64,000 bases of DNA, from assembly GCF_003610535.1 (NCBI RefSeq), contig NZ_RAPN01000001.1:2405320-2469319 (forward strand), written 5' to 3'. Positions 1 to 52,436 of the stretch are shown here, in pieces. How positions within the stretch are numbered: position 1 is the first letter of the stretch; each line of letters starts with the position of its first letter. Below the pieces are notes generated by a model. That model saw nothing but the letters and a program-made list of their open reading frames with translations, was not told where the DNA came from and ran no database searches. A program made the position numbers and the translations under genes. The stretch comes from Mangrovibacterium diazotrophicum. GTDB taxonomy: Bacteria > Bacteroidota > Bacteroidia > Bacteroidales > Prolixibacteraceae.

Positions 1-1980
1 AGTATCGGAACACTTTCCGTTGTCGCTTTCATCCTGTTTAAAAAGATAGAACACTGCATACTCTTTCAGCAACTCCTCACGATAACGATCGTCGCTTTTT
101 ATACCGCCAGAATGGGCGGGCTGCTTACAAGTGGCGGCATCATCATCCTTGGAGCTGCACCCGTTTTGAAAACACTCGTTTTTAAACAACTCCGCAAAAT
201 GGTCACTGTGTACATCTACTTCCTTTGCTGTCTCACTCTTTTAGCCTTACTTGATCCCTACTTGAATGGAAAAAACCTTCTGGAACCAAGTCATAACAAA
301 TTCTTCTTTGCCCTAAACTTTGCTGTCATCATCAGCTATATTTTTCTTTTCGCAGCTTACACGCAACGCATGTTCTCAAAGCTCGAGCACAAAGAAGTTT
401 TGAGGCAGAAAGAGATTAGCGATGCTAAAACCCGACTTTACACCAACATCACACACGAATTCAGGACACCTCTGACCGTTATTCTCGGCTTGGCCGATTC
501 GATACAAAACAATGGACAAGCTGAGCTCCGGGAAAAAGCAAAAACCATCAGCCGAAACGGAGAACGATTGCTCGAGCTTGTTGACCAGTTGCTGAATTTG
601 AGCAAACTTGAAAGTGGCAACTTAGAAGTGAAAAACATTTATGGCGACATCATTCCATTTCTTCGTTACATCTTTCAGCTTCAGAAATACCACGCTGAAG
701 AGAAAAATCTGCAATTCGAGTTCCAATCGGCCAGTCAGTCGTACGAAATGGATTTCGACCCGGAAAAAGTCACCACCATTGTTTCAAACCTATTGGGCAA
801 CGCCATCAAGTTCACTCCTGAAAACGGAAAAATTTGTCTCAAGGTCAGCCGTACCGGTAACGATCTCTACATTAATGTCATCGATAACGGCATTGGCATT
901 TCGCCCGGCTTGCAGGAGAAAATATTTGAACGCTTCTACCAGGTCGACGATCGGGATACCCGCCAGACTGGTGGCGCAGGCATCGGACTTTCGCTGACCA
1001 AAGAGTTGGTTTTACTTTTGAACGGAAGTATCAGTGTAACCAGTAACCCGGGTGCTCAAACGGTATTTACAGTGCAACTGCCGATGACCTCGGCCGAGAA
1101 CAAGTCGCCGGAAATTCTTGCTTTCCTGCAACAAGAACAGCAGTCTTTAGCTGAAGACGCAGAAATTGAGAATCTCGCGGAAAACACCGGCAGTAGGAAA
1201 AGCAAAGACCTCCTGTTGCTTATCGAGGATAATCAAGATGTGGTTAGTTACATCGTTTCCTGCTACCGCGATCAATTTAAGATTGAAGTGGCACACAATG
1301 GGCAAGCCGGATTGCAGCAAGCTCTTGAATCCACTCCCGACATTATTGTCAGCGACATCATGATGCCCGGGATGGATGGTTTTGAACTGTGTCACAAATT
1401 AAAGAATGATTACCGAACCAGCCACATCCCGATCATCCTTTTAACAGCCAAAGCCGACTTACCTTCGCGGATACGAGGATTGGAAGAAGGCGCCGATGCG
1501 TTCGTTGTAAAGCCCTTCAACCAGCACGAGCTGTTTGTGCGTATTACCAAATTACTTGAGCTTCGGCGGAGACTGCGCGAACGTTATGCGGGCGGAGCAC
1601 TCCCCTCCGAAAAACATGCCTGCACTTCGATCCAGCGGGAAGATCAATTTATGAGAAAGCTAACCGAATGTATCCGAAAAAATTTACCGGATGAGAATTT
1701 CGATGTTCCTGCTTTGTGCTCCGAAATGGCCATGAGCAAATCACAGTTGTATCGAAAGTTTAAAGCACTCACCAACATGTCGGCAGCCAAATACATCCGC
1801 AAACTGCGTATGCAGCGTGCACGGCATCTTTTGTTGACGAGCTCGCTGAACATCACCGAAATTAGCTGGGAAGTGGGCATTAAAACACTATCTACATTCA
1901 GCGAAATTTTCAAAGACGAATTTGGACAGAGCCCCTCGGAATACCAGGATCATTTCAATGGCAACCTCCGCAAGAACTAA
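1..1980 (+). CDS. Membrane hybrid histidine kinase with receiver and AraC-type DNA-binding domain, 5' partial
   Basis: The reading frame is open from base 1, so the true start lies outside the window; the first ATG at 112 falls inside a membrane segment when aligned with the paralogue at 2574-4730. Domains in order: hydrophobic helices, HisKA with phospho-accepting His (codon 454-456, motif THEFRTP), HATPase with N box NLLGNAIKF, DNGIGI and GGAGIGLSLT, a receiver with acceptor Asp in SDIMMPGMDG and Lys in VVKPFN, and a C-terminal HTH_18 (KSQLYRKFKALTN). No periplasmic sensor domain is visible, so the signal is probably sensed in the membrane helices or by a partner. It probably phosphorylates itself and activates transcription as a single-protein two-component system. 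Target genes are unknown. Confidence 0.93.
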   Translation, partial: SIGTLSVVAFILFKKIEHCILFQQLLTITIVAFYTARMGGLLTSGGIIILGAAPVLKTLVFKQLRKMVTVYIYFLCCLTLLALLDPYLNGKNLLEPSHNKFFFALNFAVIISYIFLFAAYTQRMFSKLEHKEVLRQKEISDAKTRLYTNITHEFRTPLTVILGLADSIQNNGQAELREKAKTISRNGERLLELVDQLLNLSKLESGNLEVKNIYGDIIPFLRYIFQLQKYHAEEKNLQFEFQSASQSYEMDFDPEKVTTIVSNLLGNAIKFTPENGKICLKVSRTGNDLYINVIDNGIGISPGLQEKIFERFYQVDDRDTRQTGGAGIGLSLTKELVLLLNGSISVTSNPGAQTVFTVQLPMTSAENKSPEILAFLQQEQQSLAEDAEIENLAENTGSRKSKDLLLLIEDNQDVVSYIVSCYRDQFKIEVAHNGQAGLQQALESTPDIIVSDIMMPGMDGFELCHKLKNDYRTSHIPIILLTAKADLPSRIRGLEEGADAFVVKPFNQHELFVRITKLLELRRRLRERYAGGALPSEKHACTSIQREDQFMRKLTECIRKNLPDENFDVPALCSEMAMSKSQLYRKFKALTNMSAAKYIRKLRMQRARHLLLTSSLNITEISWEVGIKTLSTFSEIFKDEFGQSPSEYQDHFNGNLRKN

Positions 1981-5511: not shown

Positions 5512-6090
5512 TTATTTTTGTTCCCAGGGTCGTTCTTCGGCAGCATAAGCAAGCTGCTCGTACCAAGCTTTGCCATATTTACGGATCAATGGCACTTTCA
5601 GGAATTGATACAAAGGCAACTTTTGCCCGCGACCACATTCACGGCCGGGTTTGCAAATATCCAATTCCTGGTAGTTTACGGCATCAAAGCGCTTGTATTC
5701 GGTAATCCGAATTGGGAAAAGTGCGCAGGAAACAGGTTTGCGAAATTCAACTTTCCCATCCAGATAGGCTTTTTCGATACCGCACTTCGTAATGCCTTTT
5801 TCGTCGACAAACACAAAAGCGCAGGCTTCGTTACTCATGAGTGGTGTCACCAGGTCTCCGTCGCTATCGATCACAGAAGTGCCTTTTTTTGCAACAACCT
5901 CTTTGCCTTCTTCGGTAATGTAAGGCTCGAAAACAGGATAGATTTGTTCAATAATCACTGCTTCTTCCTTGGTGAGCGGTGCTCCGGAATCTCCTTCAAC
6001 ACAGCATGCGCCTTTACACTTTAGCAAATCACACAAGAAGTGTTCTTCAACGACATCAAAACTAACGATGGTTTTTCCTATTTCGAGCAT
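5512..6090 (-). CDS. DUF3109 family Cys-rich protein
   Basis: A 192-residue cytoplasmic protein matching the DUF3109 family common in Bacteroidota. The N-terminal Cys cluster C20-x4-C25-x3-CC (FLCDLLKCKGACC) is followed by further Cys in TKCGIEK, SCALFPIR and the C-terminal DICKPGRECG. This pattern suggests a bound metal or Fe-S centre, like the related YkgJ zinc/iron-chelating group, but the function is not known. Complete with ATG start and family-typical length. It is convergent with the upstream lipoprotein gene and separated from gpmI by a 200-bp repeat-containing region. Confidence 0.85.
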   Translation of the reverse strand: MLEIGKTIVSFDVVEEHFLCDLLKCKGACCVEGDSGAPLTKEEAVIIEQIYPVFEPYITEEGKEVVAKKGTSVIDSDGDLVTPLMSNEACAFVFVDEKGITKCGIEKAYLDGKVEFRKPVSCALFPIRITEYKRFDAVNYQELDICKPGRECGRGQKLPLYQFLKVPLIRKYGKAWYEQLAYAAEERPWEQK

Positions 6091-47649: not shown

Positions 47650-50085
47650 ATGACTCAGTTCGACATCACTCGAACACCCCTTTTATATTTTCTTTTCCTA
47701 ATCATGTTCCCTTTTTTCAGCCAGGCGCAGATACAAGGATCCGTTCGTGACTCGACCGATCTTCCGGTTGCTTTTGCCAATATCCTGTTGCTGAATGCAG
47801 CCGACTCGACGGTTGCAACCGGCGTCATGGCTACCGACGAAGGCACCTACAACATTACCGATTTTAAACCGGGCAAGTATCTTATTGGTGCCAGCCTGAT
47901 CGGCTATGATCCGGTCTATTCCAAGCCATTTACGATCAAAAGCAGCAACGAACACTTTCACCAAAATCCGCTCTACATGCGTTCAAACGCCAAGCAGATC
48001 GAAGACGTAAATGTGGTTGCGAAAAAACCAATCTACGAACTGCAAATCGACCGAATGGTGGTTAATGTTGAAAACAGTATTACATCGAGCGGAAATACAG
48101 CTCTCGAAGTACTCGAGAAATCCCCCGGTGTGATCGTCGACCGGCAAAACAACAGCATCTCGCTGGCCGGTAAAAGCGGGGTCATGATCATCCTGAACGG
48201 CAAACAAACCCGTATGCCAATCGAGGCAGCCATGCAAATGCTGGATGGGATGAACGCGGAGAATGTAAAAAAGATTGAATTGATTACCACACCGCCCGCA
48301 AAATATGAAGCCGAAGGTAATGCCGGAATTATCAACATCGTGCTGAAGAAACACGAAGATTTTGGCACCAATGGTTCTTTCTCGCTGGGCGCCGGAGTGG
48401 CCAAACGCGAGAAGATGAACGCCAGCCTCAACCTGAATCATCACGTGGAAAAAGTGAATTTCTTTGGCACCTACAATGTCAATTACAACAACCTATTTCA
48501 CCAAATCGACTCGTATCGAAGGTACCTGAAAGATGATCAGGTCAATGAATCGGAAGCAAGCAGCTACCGGGATGCTATTGTGCTGTTTCAGAATATCCGA
48601 ATGGGACTTGATTACACCATCAGTAGTAAGACGACCTTCAGTGTACTGACAAACGGCTACATCAGCAGTTGGGATATGGACGCAAGAAATGACATCCGGT
48701 ACATGACCAACGGAACAACAACCGAGACCTCGGTAATGGCCAACTCCGAAATCAACAAATGGTACCACGGCATGGGCAACCTGAACCTGCTACACCATTT
48801 CGAGGAAGCGGAAACCCTTGAATTCAACTTCGACTACCTGAACTACTACAACGACGATCCCTCCGATTACGACTCGGAAGTTACCGACAACACGGGCGCA
48901 ATGACTTCTGAAATTATCGAGATTGAAAAGACCACGCCAATTGATATCCTCGTGGGCTCGGTAGACTACTCAAACCAGGTAAACTCGGATTTTAAACTGG
49001 AAGCCGGCGCAAAGATCACGTTCACCAAGTTTAAAAATGACGTTGCTGTTCGCTACCTCGAAAACGGCGGTTGGTACTACGATCCGGAACTGACCAATAA
49101 TTACAGCATGGACGAAAACATCATGGCACTGTATGCTTCCGCAAACTACAAATTTGCGAAGAACACCAGCATTGTCGCGGGGCTCCGTTACGAATACATG
49201 AACTCGGTTCTGGATTCGGAGACCGAAAAGGGAATCGTTGATTTACATTACGGTGAATTCTTCCCCACCCTTTTCCTGTCGCAAAAATTCGATGACAACA
49301 ATACGCTGCAAGCCTCGTACAGCCGCCGGATCAACCGACCAACCTTCAACCAGCTTGCTCCATTCCTGATCCTGATCACACCCGAAAGTTTTGTGTCCGG
49401 AAATGTAAATCTACTACCCGCGTTCAGCAATATTTACAAGATCGAGTACCAGTTTAAATCGGCCATGCTCTCGGTAGCTTATACCGATACAAAAGATGCA
49501 ATTTCGCGTTTTGCCCCAACCAATAGTGCCGACGGCGACAAACAATATTTCTTTTCCCGGAATATTGATAAAAGCGAAACCTACGCAGCCACGCTGGCCA
49601 TCCCGATTACCGCTACCCCTTGGTGGAAAATGCAGAATAACCTGATCTGGACCAAGCAGAAAGTTGATACGGAATACGATGGAACGGTGTACAAAATTGA
49701 CCAGGATAATTACCGGATTACAAGTAATCAAAGCTTCACCCTCACCAAGTATTTCTCGGCCGAAATTTCCTGTTTCTACAACTCGAAATCCATTTGGGGC
49801 ATCTACGAAAGTAAAGCGTTCGGGCGCGTGGATGCCGGCGTGCAATGGAAGTTGAAAAATGAAAACAGCCGCTTTAACCTCAACGTCAGCGATATTTTCA
49901 AAACAAATATTTACCGAAGTGTCGCCAACTTACCGGAGTTGAATATTTATAACCGTTGGCGCCTGGATTTTGAGCCCCGTGTGATCCGCCTCACTTTCAC
50001 CCAAAACTTTGGGAATGGGGCAGTCAAAACAAGGCATCGAACAACTGGTTCGGAAGAAGAACAAAATCGCGTTAGTCCTCAGTAA
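47650..50085 (+). CDS. TonB-dependent receptor-like outer-membrane protein
   Basis: An 811-residue outer-membrane protein. Signal region LYFLFLIMFPFFSQAQ; N-terminal carboxypeptidase-regulatory-like domain (IQGSVRDSTDLPVAFANILL ... GKYLIGASLIGYDP); plug domain (NTALEVLEKSPGVIVDRQNNSISLAGKSGVMIILNGKQTRM) and a large C-terminal barrel with many paired aromatic strands. It belongs to the OMP_b-brl_3/TonB-receptor group, and imports an unknown ligand or acts in surface functions. No SusD partner is adjacent. The first hairpin of the RNA array (50111) follows its stop by 25 bp and may terminate it. Confidence 0.88.
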   Translation: MTQFDITRTPLLYFLFLIMFPFFSQAQIQGSVRDSTDLPVAFANILLLNAADSTVATGVMATDEGTYNITDFKPGKYLIGASLIGYDPVYSKPFTIKSSNEHFHQNPLYMRSNAKQIEDVNVVAKKPIYELQIDRMVVNVENSITSSGNTALEVLEKSPGVIVDRQNNSISLAGKSGVMIILNGKQTRMPIEAAMQMLDGMNAENVKKIELITTPPAKYEAEGNAGIINIVLKKHEDFGTNGSFSLGAGVAKREKMNASLNLNHHVEKVNFFGTYNVNYNNLFHQIDSYRRYLKDDQVNESEASSYRDAIVLFQNIRMGLDYTISSKTTFSVLTNGYISSWDMDARNDIRYMTNGTTTETSVMANSEINKWYHGMGNLNLLHHFEEAETLEFNFDYLNYYNDDPSDYDSEVTDNTGAMTSEIIEIEKTTPIDILVGSVDYSNQVNSDFKLEAGAKITFTKFKNDVAVRYLENGGWYYDPELTNNYSMDENIMALYASANYKFAKNTSIVAGLRYEYMNSVLDSETEKGIVDLHYGEFFPTLFLSQKFDDNNTLQASYSRRINRPTFNQLAPFLILITPESFVSGNVNLLPAFSNIYKIEYQFKSAMLSVAYTDTKDAISRFAPTNSADGDKQYFFSRNIDKSETYAATLAIPITATPWWKMQNNLIWTKQKVDTEYDGTVYKIDQDNYRITSNQSFTLTKYFSAEISCFYNSKSIWGIYESKAFGRVDAGVQWKLKNENSRFNLNVSDIFKTNIYRSVANLPELNIYNRWRLDFEPRVIRLTFTQNFGNGAVKTRHRTTGSEEEQNRVSPQ

Positions 50086-50110: not shown

Positions 50111-50198
50111 AAAAAAAAGGATGGCCTCTACCATCCTTTTCTCACTTAACCAAACCTATCTCTATGAAAAAAACTACTTATTACTTTGCTTATTGTAC
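50111..50198 (-). ncRNA. Candidate small RNA, array copy 1 (type A)
   Basis: Minus-strand -7 box TATCTTTG at 50203-50210. Predicted start near 50198, end in the T tract at 50111-50118. The terminator is GGATGGT-AGAG-GCCATCC with a U.G pair at the closing position. It also lies 25 bp after the TonB-receptor stop and may end that transcript from the other side. Predicted length about 88 nt. No open reading frame is conserved. Confidence 0.7.
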
Positions 50199-50429
50199 GC
50201 TACAAAGATACGCCCTGCTTCAGTTAACGCCTGCCAAGGAACGTTAAAGAACTTTAGAAATGAACGAAGGCATGGGAAAGCTATCAATTTTAAGAAACCG
50301 TTGAAGATGCTGTTGTCAGGTTGTCATTAGTTATTCGGGTGCCTTCCGGCGCTGACTCGAGGCTATTTTCCACTCTGCGCCTTCGCGTCCGCGTGTGCAT
50401 TAACCAACGACTTGCTCGTTTCAGCAAAC

Positions 50430-50517
50430 AAAAAAAGGATGACCGCTGCCATCCTTTTCTCACTTAACCAAACCTATCTCTATGAAAAAAAATTACTTAT
50501 TACTTTGCTTATTGTAC
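50430..50517 (-). ncRNA. Candidate small RNA, array copy 2 (type A)
   Basis: -7 box TATCTTTG at 50522-50529 on the minus strand; terminator GGATGGC-AGCG-GTCATCC with a G.U pair, then seven T. Predicted length about 88 nt. Confidence 0.7.
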
Positions 50518-50629
50518 ACTACAAAGATACGCCGCGCTTCCGTTAACGGCTTTCAACGAACGTTAAAGAAGCTTAGAAATGAATGACATAAAATCCCGAG
50601 TGCGAAATACTCGATACAACTGAAGTCAC

Positions 50630-50717
50630 AAAAAAAGGATGGCCTACACCATCCTTTTTCCCTTCTAATCAAAACTATCTCTATGAAAAAATCTACTTAT
50701 TACTTTGCTTATTGTAC
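50630..50717 (-). ncRNA. Candidate small RNA, array copy 3 (type B)
   Basis: -7 box TATTTTTG at 50722-50729, keeping TAnnTTTG with different middle bases; terminator GGATGGT-GTAG-GCCATCC with a U.G pair. The body differs from type A, with AATCAAAACTATCTCTATG on the opposite strand. Confidence 0.68.
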
Positions 50718-50834
50718 GCTACAAAAATACGCCGCACTTCCGTTAATGCATGAAAAGGAACGTTAAAGAACCTTAGAATCGACTATACTGGAATAGAGTA
50801 AGAATAGCGCAACTGGCTGGTCGTTTCAGCAAAC

Positions 50835-50923
50835 AAAAAAAAGGATGACCGCTGCCATCCTTTTCTCACTTAACCAAACCTATCTCTATGAAAAAAACTT
50901 ACTTATTACTTTGCTTATTGTAC
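50835..50923 (-). ncRNA. Candidate small RNA, array copy 4 (type A)
   Basis: -7 box TATCTTTG at 50928-50935; terminator GGATGGC-AGCG-GTCATCC then eight T. Predicted length about 89 nt. Confidence 0.7.
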
Positions 50924-51039
50924 TCTACAAAGATACGCCGCGCTTCCGTTAACGCCTGCCAAGGAACGTTAAAGAACCTTAGAAATGACAAGACTTGAAA
51001 AAGTAAGAATAGCGCAGTTGGCTGGTTATTTCAACAGAC

Positions 51040-51127
51040 AAAAAAAGGATGACCGTTGCCATCCTTTTCTCACTTAACCAAACCTATCTCTATGAAAAAA
51101 ACTTACTTATTACTTTGCTTATTGTAC
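51040..51127 (-). ncRNA. Candidate small RNA, array copy 5 (type A)
   Basis: -7 box TATCTTTG at 51132-51139; terminator GGATGGC-AACG-GTCATCC, loop differs, stem kept. Confidence 0.7.
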
Positions 51128-51239
51128 GCTACAAAGATACACCGCGCTTCCGTTAACGGCTTTCAACGAATGTTAAAGAAGCTTAGAAATGAATGACATA
51201 AAATCCGGAGCACTAAAAACTCGATACAAATGAAGTCAC

Positions 51240-51328
51240 AAAAAAATGGATGGCCTACGCCATCCATTTTCCCTTCTAATCAAAACTATCTCAATGAAAA
51301 AATCTACCTATTACTTTGCTTATTTTAC
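51240..51328 (-). ncRNA. Candidate small RNA, array copy 6 (type B)
   Basis: -7 box TATTTTTG at 51333-51340; terminator TGGATGGC-GTAG-GCCATCCA, a perfect 8-bp stem extended by an A-T pair relative to other copies, followed by a T tract. One base of the ATG-proximal part is changed (TCTCAATG on the opposite strand). Confidence 0.68.
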
Positions 51329-51558
51329 TTTACAAAAATACGCCGCACTTCCGTTAATGCCTGAAAAGGAACGTTAAAGACCCTTAGAAATGAACGAAGG
51401 CATGGGAAAGCTACCAATTTAAGAAACCGTTGAAGATCCTGTTGTCAGGTTGTCAATAGTTATCTGGTTGTCTTCCTGCGCTGACTCGAAGCTATTTCCC
51501 CCTCTGCGCCTTTGCGTCCTTGCGTGCTTCAACCAACTACTTGCTCGTTTCAGCAAAC

Positions 51559-51646
51559 AAAAAAAGGATGACCGCTGCCATCCTTTTCTCACTTAACCAA
51601 ACCTATCTCTATGAAAAAAACTTACTTATTACTTTGCTTATTGTAC
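51559..51646 (-). ncRNA. Candidate small RNA, array copy 7 (type A)
   Basis: -7 box TATCTTTG at 51651-51658; terminator GGATGGC-AGCG-GTCATCC then seven T. Confidence 0.7.
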
Positions 51647-51895
51647 TCTACAAAGATACACCCGACTTCCGTTAACGCCTGACAACGGATGTTAAAGAAA
51701 CTTAGAAGTGATTGGAATGAAAGAAATGTTCCAAAGTCTGCGAAAGCGATAAAAATTCAGAAACCGTTGAAGATCCTGTTGTCATGTTGTCATTAGTTCT
51801 CGGCTTGTCTTCCGGCACTAGCCCGAAACTATTCTCCACTCCGCGCCTTTGTGTCTTTGCGTGCACCAACCAACAACTTACTCTTTTCACCACAC

Positions 51896-51984
51896 AAAAA
51901 AAAGGATGACCACTGCCATCCTTTTCTCACTTAACCAAACCTATCTCTATGAAAAAAACTTACTTATTACTTTGCTTATTGTAC
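51896..51984 (-). ncRNA. Candidate small RNA, array copy 8 (type A)
   Basis: -7 box TATCTTTG at 51989-51996; terminator GGATGGC-AGTG-GTCATCC then eight T. Last copy before the tRNA operon terminator. Confidence 0.7.
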
Positions 51985-52078
51985 GCTACAAAGATACACC
52001 GCGCTTCCGTTAACGCCTGCCAACGGATGTTAAAGAACCTTAGAAGTGAGATTTGGAGCGCGAAAAGTATGAAAAACG

Positions 52079-52107: not shown

Positions 52108-52113
52108 TCTATA

Positions 52114-52189
52114 TGGAGCGAGAGACGGGATTCGAACCCGCGACCCCAACCTTGGCAAGGTTGTGCTCTACCAACTGAGCTACTCTCGC
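52114..52189 (-). tRNA. tRNA-Gly(GCC)
   Basis: A 76-nt gene with acceptor GCGAGAG / CTCTCGC, discriminator T, encoded CCA, D-arm AGCTCAGTTGGTAGAGC, anticodon loop CTTGCCAAG (GCC) and T-loop GGTTCGAATCC. Identical to the copy at 52305-52380. Confidence 0.97.
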
Positions 52190-52211
52190 AATATGTGTTT
52201 TGTTCTAAAAG

Positions 52212-52295
52212 TACCCGGAGCGGGACTTGAACCCGCACGATCGTAATGATCATTGGATTTTAAGTCCAACGTGTCTACCATTCCACCATCCGGGC
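52212..52295 (-). tRNA. tRNA-Leu(TAA)
   Basis: An 84-nt class II tRNA with long variable arm (ATGATCATTACGATCGT), anticodon loop CTTAAAATC (TAA), T-loop GGTTCAAGTCC and discriminator A. CCA is not encoded. Lies between two tRNA-Gly genes on one transcript. Confidence 0.95.
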
Positions 52296-52304
52296 ATCCT
52301 AAGA

Positions 52305-52380
52305 TGGAGCGAGAGACGGGATTCGAACCCGCGACCCCAACCTTGGCAAGGTTGTGCTCTACCAACTGAGCTACTCTCGC
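52305..52380 (-). tRNA. tRNA-Gly(GCC), second copy
   Basis: Identical to tRNA-Gly at 52114-52189, with encoded CCA, and first in the operon. A TATATTTG -7 box lies at 52437-52444. Confidence 0.97.
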
Positions 52381-52436
52381 ATTTTATACTTTCAGTATCC
52401 TTTTGAACTGTGCTACCCCTTTCGGAAACAGCGATG

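Follow-up and report, generated by a model that had tools for sequence, protein, structure and literature searches.

An array of eight candidate small RNA genes lies in tandem on the minus strand at 50111-52049 of the window, the whole 64,000-nucleotide stretch of Mangrovibacterium diazotrophicum DNA that was analysed; the bacterium is an environmental one related to the Bacteroides of the gut. The reading that best accounts for it, to which a probability of roughly two in three can be attached, is that the eight units are separately transcribed, trans-acting sibling RNAs related to FopS, whose seed would block the start codons of SusC-type mRNAs. FopS is a family of paralogous small RNAs of B. 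thetaiotaomicron described in 2025 (Rfam RF04319; PMC11697453). The array RNA looks like a distant relative of this Bacteroides family that has come under different control, and it probably switches off translation of nutrient-importer genes.

All eight copies share a single orientation, with starts spaced 200-338 nt apart (Table 1). Each consists, on the minus strand, of a -7 box of the form TAnnTTTG followed by a body and then a 14-15-pair hairpin with 7-8 T behind it, so that every one of the eight tandem units proposed in an earlier, sequence-only reading of this DNA was confirmed. That reading had also seen the middle bases of the box vary by subtype within the consensus, and the box is indeed TATCTTTG in six units and TATTTTTG in two, units 3 and 6, a subtype in which the 3' half of the seed is altered as well. 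Counted from the first nucleotide past the box up to the last T of the run, a unit measures 92-93 nt; on the assumption that transcription starts about 6 nt past the box, the RNA would be about 85-88 nt long, in line with the 85-90 nt expected beforehand. The poly-U begins 29-30 nt past the box, and in folds of the array RNAs the seed engages in weak internal pairing only. The array sits between an outer-membrane beta-barrel gene and a tRNA-Gly/Leu/Gly cluster, which mutS adjoins. Within the cluster, tRNA-Leu is flanked by two tRNA-Gly(GCC) genes in an 89-nt repeat that is 94% identical (window 52113-52392). At Rfam's own thresholds, only tRNAs are found in the window.

Table 1. Array units, their promoters and neighbouring landmarks in window coordinates. 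Units begin at the first nucleotide past the -7 box and finish with the T run, the transcript of unit 1 being taken to start about 6 nt inside its 51988 end; promoter positions are contig positions minus 2405319.
Feature	Position	Strand	Scores or match
Unit 1 RNA, seed and terminator	51896..51988	-	RF04319 36.6 bits; R1 86.5 bits
Unit 2 RNA	51559..51650	-	RF04319 37.2 bits; R1 87.1 bits
Unit 3 RNA, TATTTTTG box, altered seed 3' half	51240..51332	-	RF04319 28.9 bits; R1 63.6 bits
Unit 4 RNA	51040..51131	-	RF04319 35.9 bits; R1 86.6 bits
Unit 5 RNA	50835..50927	-	RF04319 36.9 bits; R1 86.2 bits
Unit 6 RNA, subtype of unit 3	50630..50721	-	RF04319 28.6 bits; R1 73.3 bits
Unit 7 RNA	50430..50521	-	RF04319 32.3 bits; R1 88 bits
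Unit 8 RNA	50111..50202	-	RF04319 36.8 bits; R1 86.8 bits
Promoter of unit 1, TTAAC-15-TTAAC-12-TATCTTTG	51989..52033	-	exact match
Promoter of unit 2	51651..51695	-	exact match
Promoter of unit 3	51333..51377	-	exact match
Promoter of unit 4	51132..51176	-	exact match
Promoter of unit 5	50928..50972	-	exact match
Promoter of unit 6	50722..50766	-	exact match
Promoter of unit 7	50522..50566	-	exact match
Promoter of unit 8	50203..50247	-	exact match
tRNA-Gly, tRNA-Leu, tRNA-Gly (landmark upstream of the array, not part of the system)	52114..52380	-	
Outer-membrane beta-barrel protein, OMP_b-brl_3 (landmark converging on the array)	47650..50085	+	

Conservation was followed in alignment A1, 40 sequences picked by hand for spread (38 from loci, two from the window), which is also the basis of covariance model R1. 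Compensatory changes occur at eight of nine hairpin pairs and 99.2% of cells are paired, against 31-79% in slid controls, while outside the hairpin the invariant columns fall in the seed. The covariation and the invariant seed columns point to selection on the RNA, and the promoter and U run on the minus strand mark that strand as the one predicted to yield it. The genome holds 12 copies: the eight, a second array of three and a singleton, the last four lying outside the window and, like the conserved TTAAC boxes upstream of each unit, going beyond the sequence-only reading. R1 recovers eleven of them at E <= 0.001 (the eight, two members of the second array and the singleton); the twelfth, the strongly diverged third member of the second array, scores 33.7 bits, and its promoter matches with one mismatch. 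The second array is found between ClpB-like and pyruvate phosphate dikinase-like genes, so named by eye (L210 8560-9086). Two weak R1 matches in L210 (1927-2013, 30 bits; 5723-5772, 26.8 bits) were not counted, having no TTAAC-plus-box upstream.

The candidate RNA family recurs across Prolixibacteraceae and related genera. One unit as a DNA query finds matches in 16 of 41 genomes, its own included, and a covariance-model search of relatives, suggested with the original reading, gave R1 matches at E <= 0.001 in 44 of 198 genomes of the order, most at 1e-5 or weaker. A gapped seed pattern occurs in 66 stretches of named genomes, a few of them mRNA starts, with genera that include Draconibacterium, Maribellus, Sunxiuqinia, Mariniphaga, Saccharicrinis, Labilibacter and Plebeiobacterium as well as many unnamed Prolixibacteraceae. 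Tandem arrays exist elsewhere too, with four R1 matches in L219 and five in L218, for instance. The proposal of a sibling small RNA family of a Bacteroidota is thus supported by sequence, conservation and covariation. When the 74 seed-pattern matches in the 66 stretches were inspected, TAnnTTTG lay within 75 nt at 67. The other seven comprise four that resemble mRNA starts (L102, called by eye only; L105, a lipoprotein-like ORF without an NCBIfam match; L113; and L130, where the mRNA start is not confirmed), one copy in L121 with TATCTTCG, and two family members with no recognisable promoter (L124 643-667; L151 1494-1517, the latter with a strong terminator). These two may come from the 3' ends of mRNAs, an origin reported for FopS-14. 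Three copies in L022 (G019) carry the anti-start seed twice in succession (TTTTTTTCATAG repeated), a natural double-seed version. A Prolixibacteraceae-type copy also turns up in L158, a contig labelled Chitinophaga pinensis MAG that is probably mis-binned.

To compare upstream regions, candidates were gathered by rule (TAnnTTTG, TTTT[CT]ATA, hairpin, T run) into 100 rows, one of which (L161:6552-6605) is plainly outside the family, and 96 of the rows have a full, distinct upstream stretch. Relative to TAnnTTTG, these 96 regions have TTAAC boxes at distances of 17, 37 and 47 nt on the upstream side and a TT at 27, which gives the elements a 10-bp phasing. All three TTAAC places are filled, with at most one mismatch, in 83 of the 96 array-family promoters and in none of 33 at RF04319 loci; 83 is a low count, the rule having mistaken TAGATTTG nearer the seed for the box in the second copies of L101 and possibly in L157. 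Conversely, a dyad ATGTT..AACAT is present in 19 of the 33 RF04319-locus promoters and in none of the 96. In the RF04319 loci (L287-L316) it mostly lies 22-25 nt upstream of the -7 box, a possible site for a putative regulator in Bacteroides-type genes. Across the 5.8 Mb of the genome, the pattern TTAAC-15-TTAAC-12-TAnnTTTG has ten exact matches, all at genes of the RNA family, and four with one mismatch, two of them at RNA genes. Only these 14 matches, 12 of them at RNA genes, were used, because with up to two mismatches allowed the pattern gives 21 matches against 26, pooled over mismatch numbers, for its reversed control. The two at other places (L278, L279) precede coding-like sequence, as judged by eye. 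The TTAAC promoter thus appears almost exclusive to these RNA genes in the genome. Since the hairpin covaries across the 40 sequences and the exact matches of the promoter pattern all fall at the family's RNA genes, the array is not a product of chance. Phased direct repeats of this kind recall OmpR/PhoB-type sites.

The array family is very probably a distant homologue of FopS, because RF04319 is the top-scoring model over its full length and R1 in turn recovers RF04319 loci. In the comparison with Rfam that had been put forward as a check, RF04319 has the best bit score among 4227 families for all eight units (28.6-37.2 bits, E 0.0023-0.11), and none of the eight reaches its gathering threshold of 56 bits. 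By E-value it ranks first for seven of them; at unit 3, SQ2397 has an E of 0.067 against 0.091 for FopS, and unit 6 matches FopS at E 0.11. The alignment, shown for unit 2, spans model positions 1-71, the whole length. In the reverse search, R1 detects 30 of 30 RF04319 loci, these being the best-scoring ones rather than a random draw; the best match at each locus scores 24.0-37.7 bits, with E from 3.7e-5 to 0.02 over 90 kb. RF04319 exceeds its gathering threshold in none of 60 genomes of the family; at E <= 1 it matches in 56 of the 60, a figure that includes chance matches and mRNA starts, as the model also matches Bacillus subtilis at that level. Of 295 genomes across the order, RF04319 matches 61 at E <= 1e-4 and exceeds the cut-off in 55. 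Weak RF04319 matches elsewhere in the genome (L207-L209) were rejected, since by eye they overlie the starts of coding genes. The remaining weak Rfam matches (SQ2397, HrrF, BTnc231, L20 leader, etc.) were likewise discarded, all being far below threshold and only SQ2397 at unit 3 bettering the FopS E-value. The earlier remark that multicopy small RNAs of Bacteroidota are little described needs correcting, as the nearest relative of the array RNAs, FopS, now has an account and an Rfam entry. A literature search whose coverage largely excluded subscription papers and preprints found nothing on Mangrovibacterium small RNAs and nothing related for Prolixibacteraceae.

The seed of the array RNAs is the reverse complement of a Bacteroidota translation-start region, and its duplex energies favour SusC starts over those of other genes. 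Energies were expressed relative to shuffled seeds for 56 SusC starts of the same genome (TIGR04056) and for 240 background ORFs of at least 200 aa from 20 stretches of 20 kb. In both sets the start was taken as the first ATG of the ORF to be followed by two or more K/R within five codons, with the first ATG of all as the fallback; background starts were confined to the first quarter of the ORF, a limit not placed on SusC starts. Median z was -2.20 for SusC (n=56) and -0.11 for other genes (n=240), with p 1.2e-15 and, on repetition, 1.6e-15; SusC genes are paralogues, and these p values overstate their independence. One of the 240 background genes is itself a SusC gene, a flaw that if anything narrows the gap. 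The SusC genes at L098, L250, L264 and L074 rank as the strongest predicted targets. With the seed variant of units 3 and 6, SusC is again separated (-1.48 against 0.01, p 4e-13). With a plus-strand copy of the seed the SusC signal is absent (p 0.99), and SusC and background do not differ significantly for the seed in reverse (p 0.095). The 5' leader was considered as a further seed, one that would pair with codons of the signal peptide, and the idea was dropped because the leader gives no target signal (p 0.4). The pattern TAAC-2..14-ATGAAAAA is found at 9 of 56 SusC starts and 0 of 240 others. Any pairing must be imperfect, because the 25-nt anti-seed, with up to three mismatches, has no site in the genome besides ten of its own RNA genes. 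In a Flavobacteriaceae MAG (L113 4210-5136), the start of a SusC-family gene on the opposite strand is complementary to the RNA seed pattern.

Other readings differ on how specific such targeting would be. The RNAs could be real and yet act broadly on mRNAs for exported proteins that start with ATGAAAAAA, rather than on SusC in particular. Some non-SusC starts score as well (a lipoprotein-like gene reaches z -4.57), the lipoprotein-like ORF start in L105 is matched, and much of the SusC signal is the ATGAAAAA start itself, which 38 of 56 SusC but only 12 of 240 background genes possess; against those 12 alone, the full-seed difference is weak (p 0.034). When poly-U and CAU are held fixed and the rest is shuffled, however, SusC still stands apart (-0.81 against 0.11 for other genes, p 2e-8) and the 12 background genes do not (median z 0.13). 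Broad action is judged unlikely. It is also conceivable that the family is not homologous to FopS and has a separate origin, for instance as an antisense copy of a gene start, an account that would be compatible with the same mode of action. A short U-rich seed with a terminator arises easily, RF04319 scores under its threshold, and the upstream promoter elements differ from those of FopS loci. Against such convergence stand the full-length match, detection in both directions and the existence of short-leader forms in Labilibacter/Saccharicrinis-type loci and in the genome's own singleton, where the seed lies 7-9 nt past the -7 box as in FopS; a separate origin accordingly seems improbable.

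Two further readings carry still less weight. The array might be repetitive DNA, a set of promoter or terminator repeats or a decoy for a DNA-binding protein, its RNA functionless. Strong conservation of the TTAAC boxes, their near-absence from other loci and the inclusion of spacer DNA in the segmental repeats at the array would fit such a reading; the hairpin covariation and the invariant seed columns nonetheless indicate selection on RNA, and a singleton and other arrays exist elsewhere, which leaves the DNA-only reading very improbable. Alternatively, the plus strand could encode a peptide, since a frame beginning ATGAAAAAAACTTACTTATTACTT... that resembles a signal peptide can be read directly in the units. 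Read by eye, the frame soon runs into a stop codon in relatives (L015 and L018, for example), indels in the seed are not multiples of three, and terminator and promoter are oriented the opposite way. On account of the stops and indels in relatives this peptide was rejected, and it retains hardly any credibility.

The history of the locus can be followed within the genus. At the same position in M. lignilyticum (beta-barrel gene, tRNA-Gly/Leu/Gly, mutS) there is one copy, and two further genomes of the genus have copies at other places with no tRNA nearby. A tree was built from 27 copies selected by rule, without the weaker ones; in it the M. lignilyticum copy and those of the two further genomes group with the eight and apart from the second-array lineage (support for the split 0.79, lower within the array). 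Because a single copy occupies the same locus in M. lignilyticum and groups with the eight, the array either expanded from a single copy at this locus or was reduced to one in the relative.

Under the preferred reading of FopS-related start-codon blockers, each promoter would combine a Bacteroidota -7 box with TTAAC boxes on one face of the helix, the latter serving as sites of a putative regulator. Each RNA would have a mostly unpaired 5' part and a 3' end formed by the intrinsic terminator; the seed UUUUUUUCAUAGAGAUAGGUUUGGUUAAG, in reverse complement, reads as a translation start of the type CUUAACCAAACCUAUCUCUAUGAAAAAAA. Imperfect pairing of this seed over the start codon is predicted to exclude ribosomes from SusC-type transporter mRNAs, as demonstrated in B. 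thetaiotaomicron for FopS-10, which binds the susC start region and blocks translation, an effect relieved by the RRM protein RbpB (PMC11697453). Two RRM_1 proteins, with Gly-rich tails by eye, are encoded in the genome and may modulate the array RNAs in a similar manner, while eight copies would raise the dose and the speed of the response. A more tentative picture, short of even odds, is of an old Bacteroidales family of start-codon-blocking RNAs that kept its anti-SusC seed and swapped its control region: in Prolixibacteraceae a putative dedicated regulator would read the 10-bp-phased TTAAC boxes, its regulon would comprise little besides the RNA genes themselves, and the number of copies at the locus (1 to 8) would tune the repression of glycan importers. 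The array would mean that a recently described layer of control over glycan uptake, known from gut Bacteroides, exists in other Bacteroidales too, where Rfam at threshold does not pick it up. It also offers natural variation to work with, in the form of two seed subtypes within one array, 5' leaders that may be short or long, a locus with one copy in one genome and eight in another, and a pair of promoter designs that seem to serve one and the same RNA. Identifying the factor that recognises the TTAAC boxes would reveal the conditions under which this bacterium silences its SusC-like transporters, of which it has at least 56.

Among known systems, LhrC of Listeria and Qrr of Vibrio, to which the sequence-only reading had likened the array, come from hosts of other phyla. 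Both are named as multicopy sibling RNAs in PMC11697453, and the likeness holds for that layout and for nothing beyond it. GibS of B. thetaiotaomicron pairs with start-codon regions through an unstructured 5' seed (PMC7366714), as predicted for the array RNAs, and FopS members contain the R1 seed of GibS; it differs in being 145 nt long and in having a second seed, R2, and promoter motif PM2 (PMC7366714). The closest likeness is to FopS itself, likewise multicopy and short: it has a TAnnTTTG box and a terminator hairpin, and its 5' seed, UUUUUCAU...GGUUAA, is complementary to the start regions of susC. The array RNAs share the largely unpaired 5' seed of type UUUUUCAU...UUAGAUUUAAGGUUAA, the 3' intrinsic terminator and the many paralogues per genome. 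They are also complementary, in silico, to the regions where susC translation starts, an effect due for the most part, though not wholly, to ATGAAAAA starts. What is new relative to FopS is the tandem array, the word 'tandem' being absent from the main text of PMC11697453, a longer 5' leader, with 29-30 nt from box to poly-U compared with about 7 in RF04319 loci (the latter by eye), and a different promoter, in which 10-bp-phased TTAAC boxes take the place of the dyad seen at over half of the RF04319 promoters.
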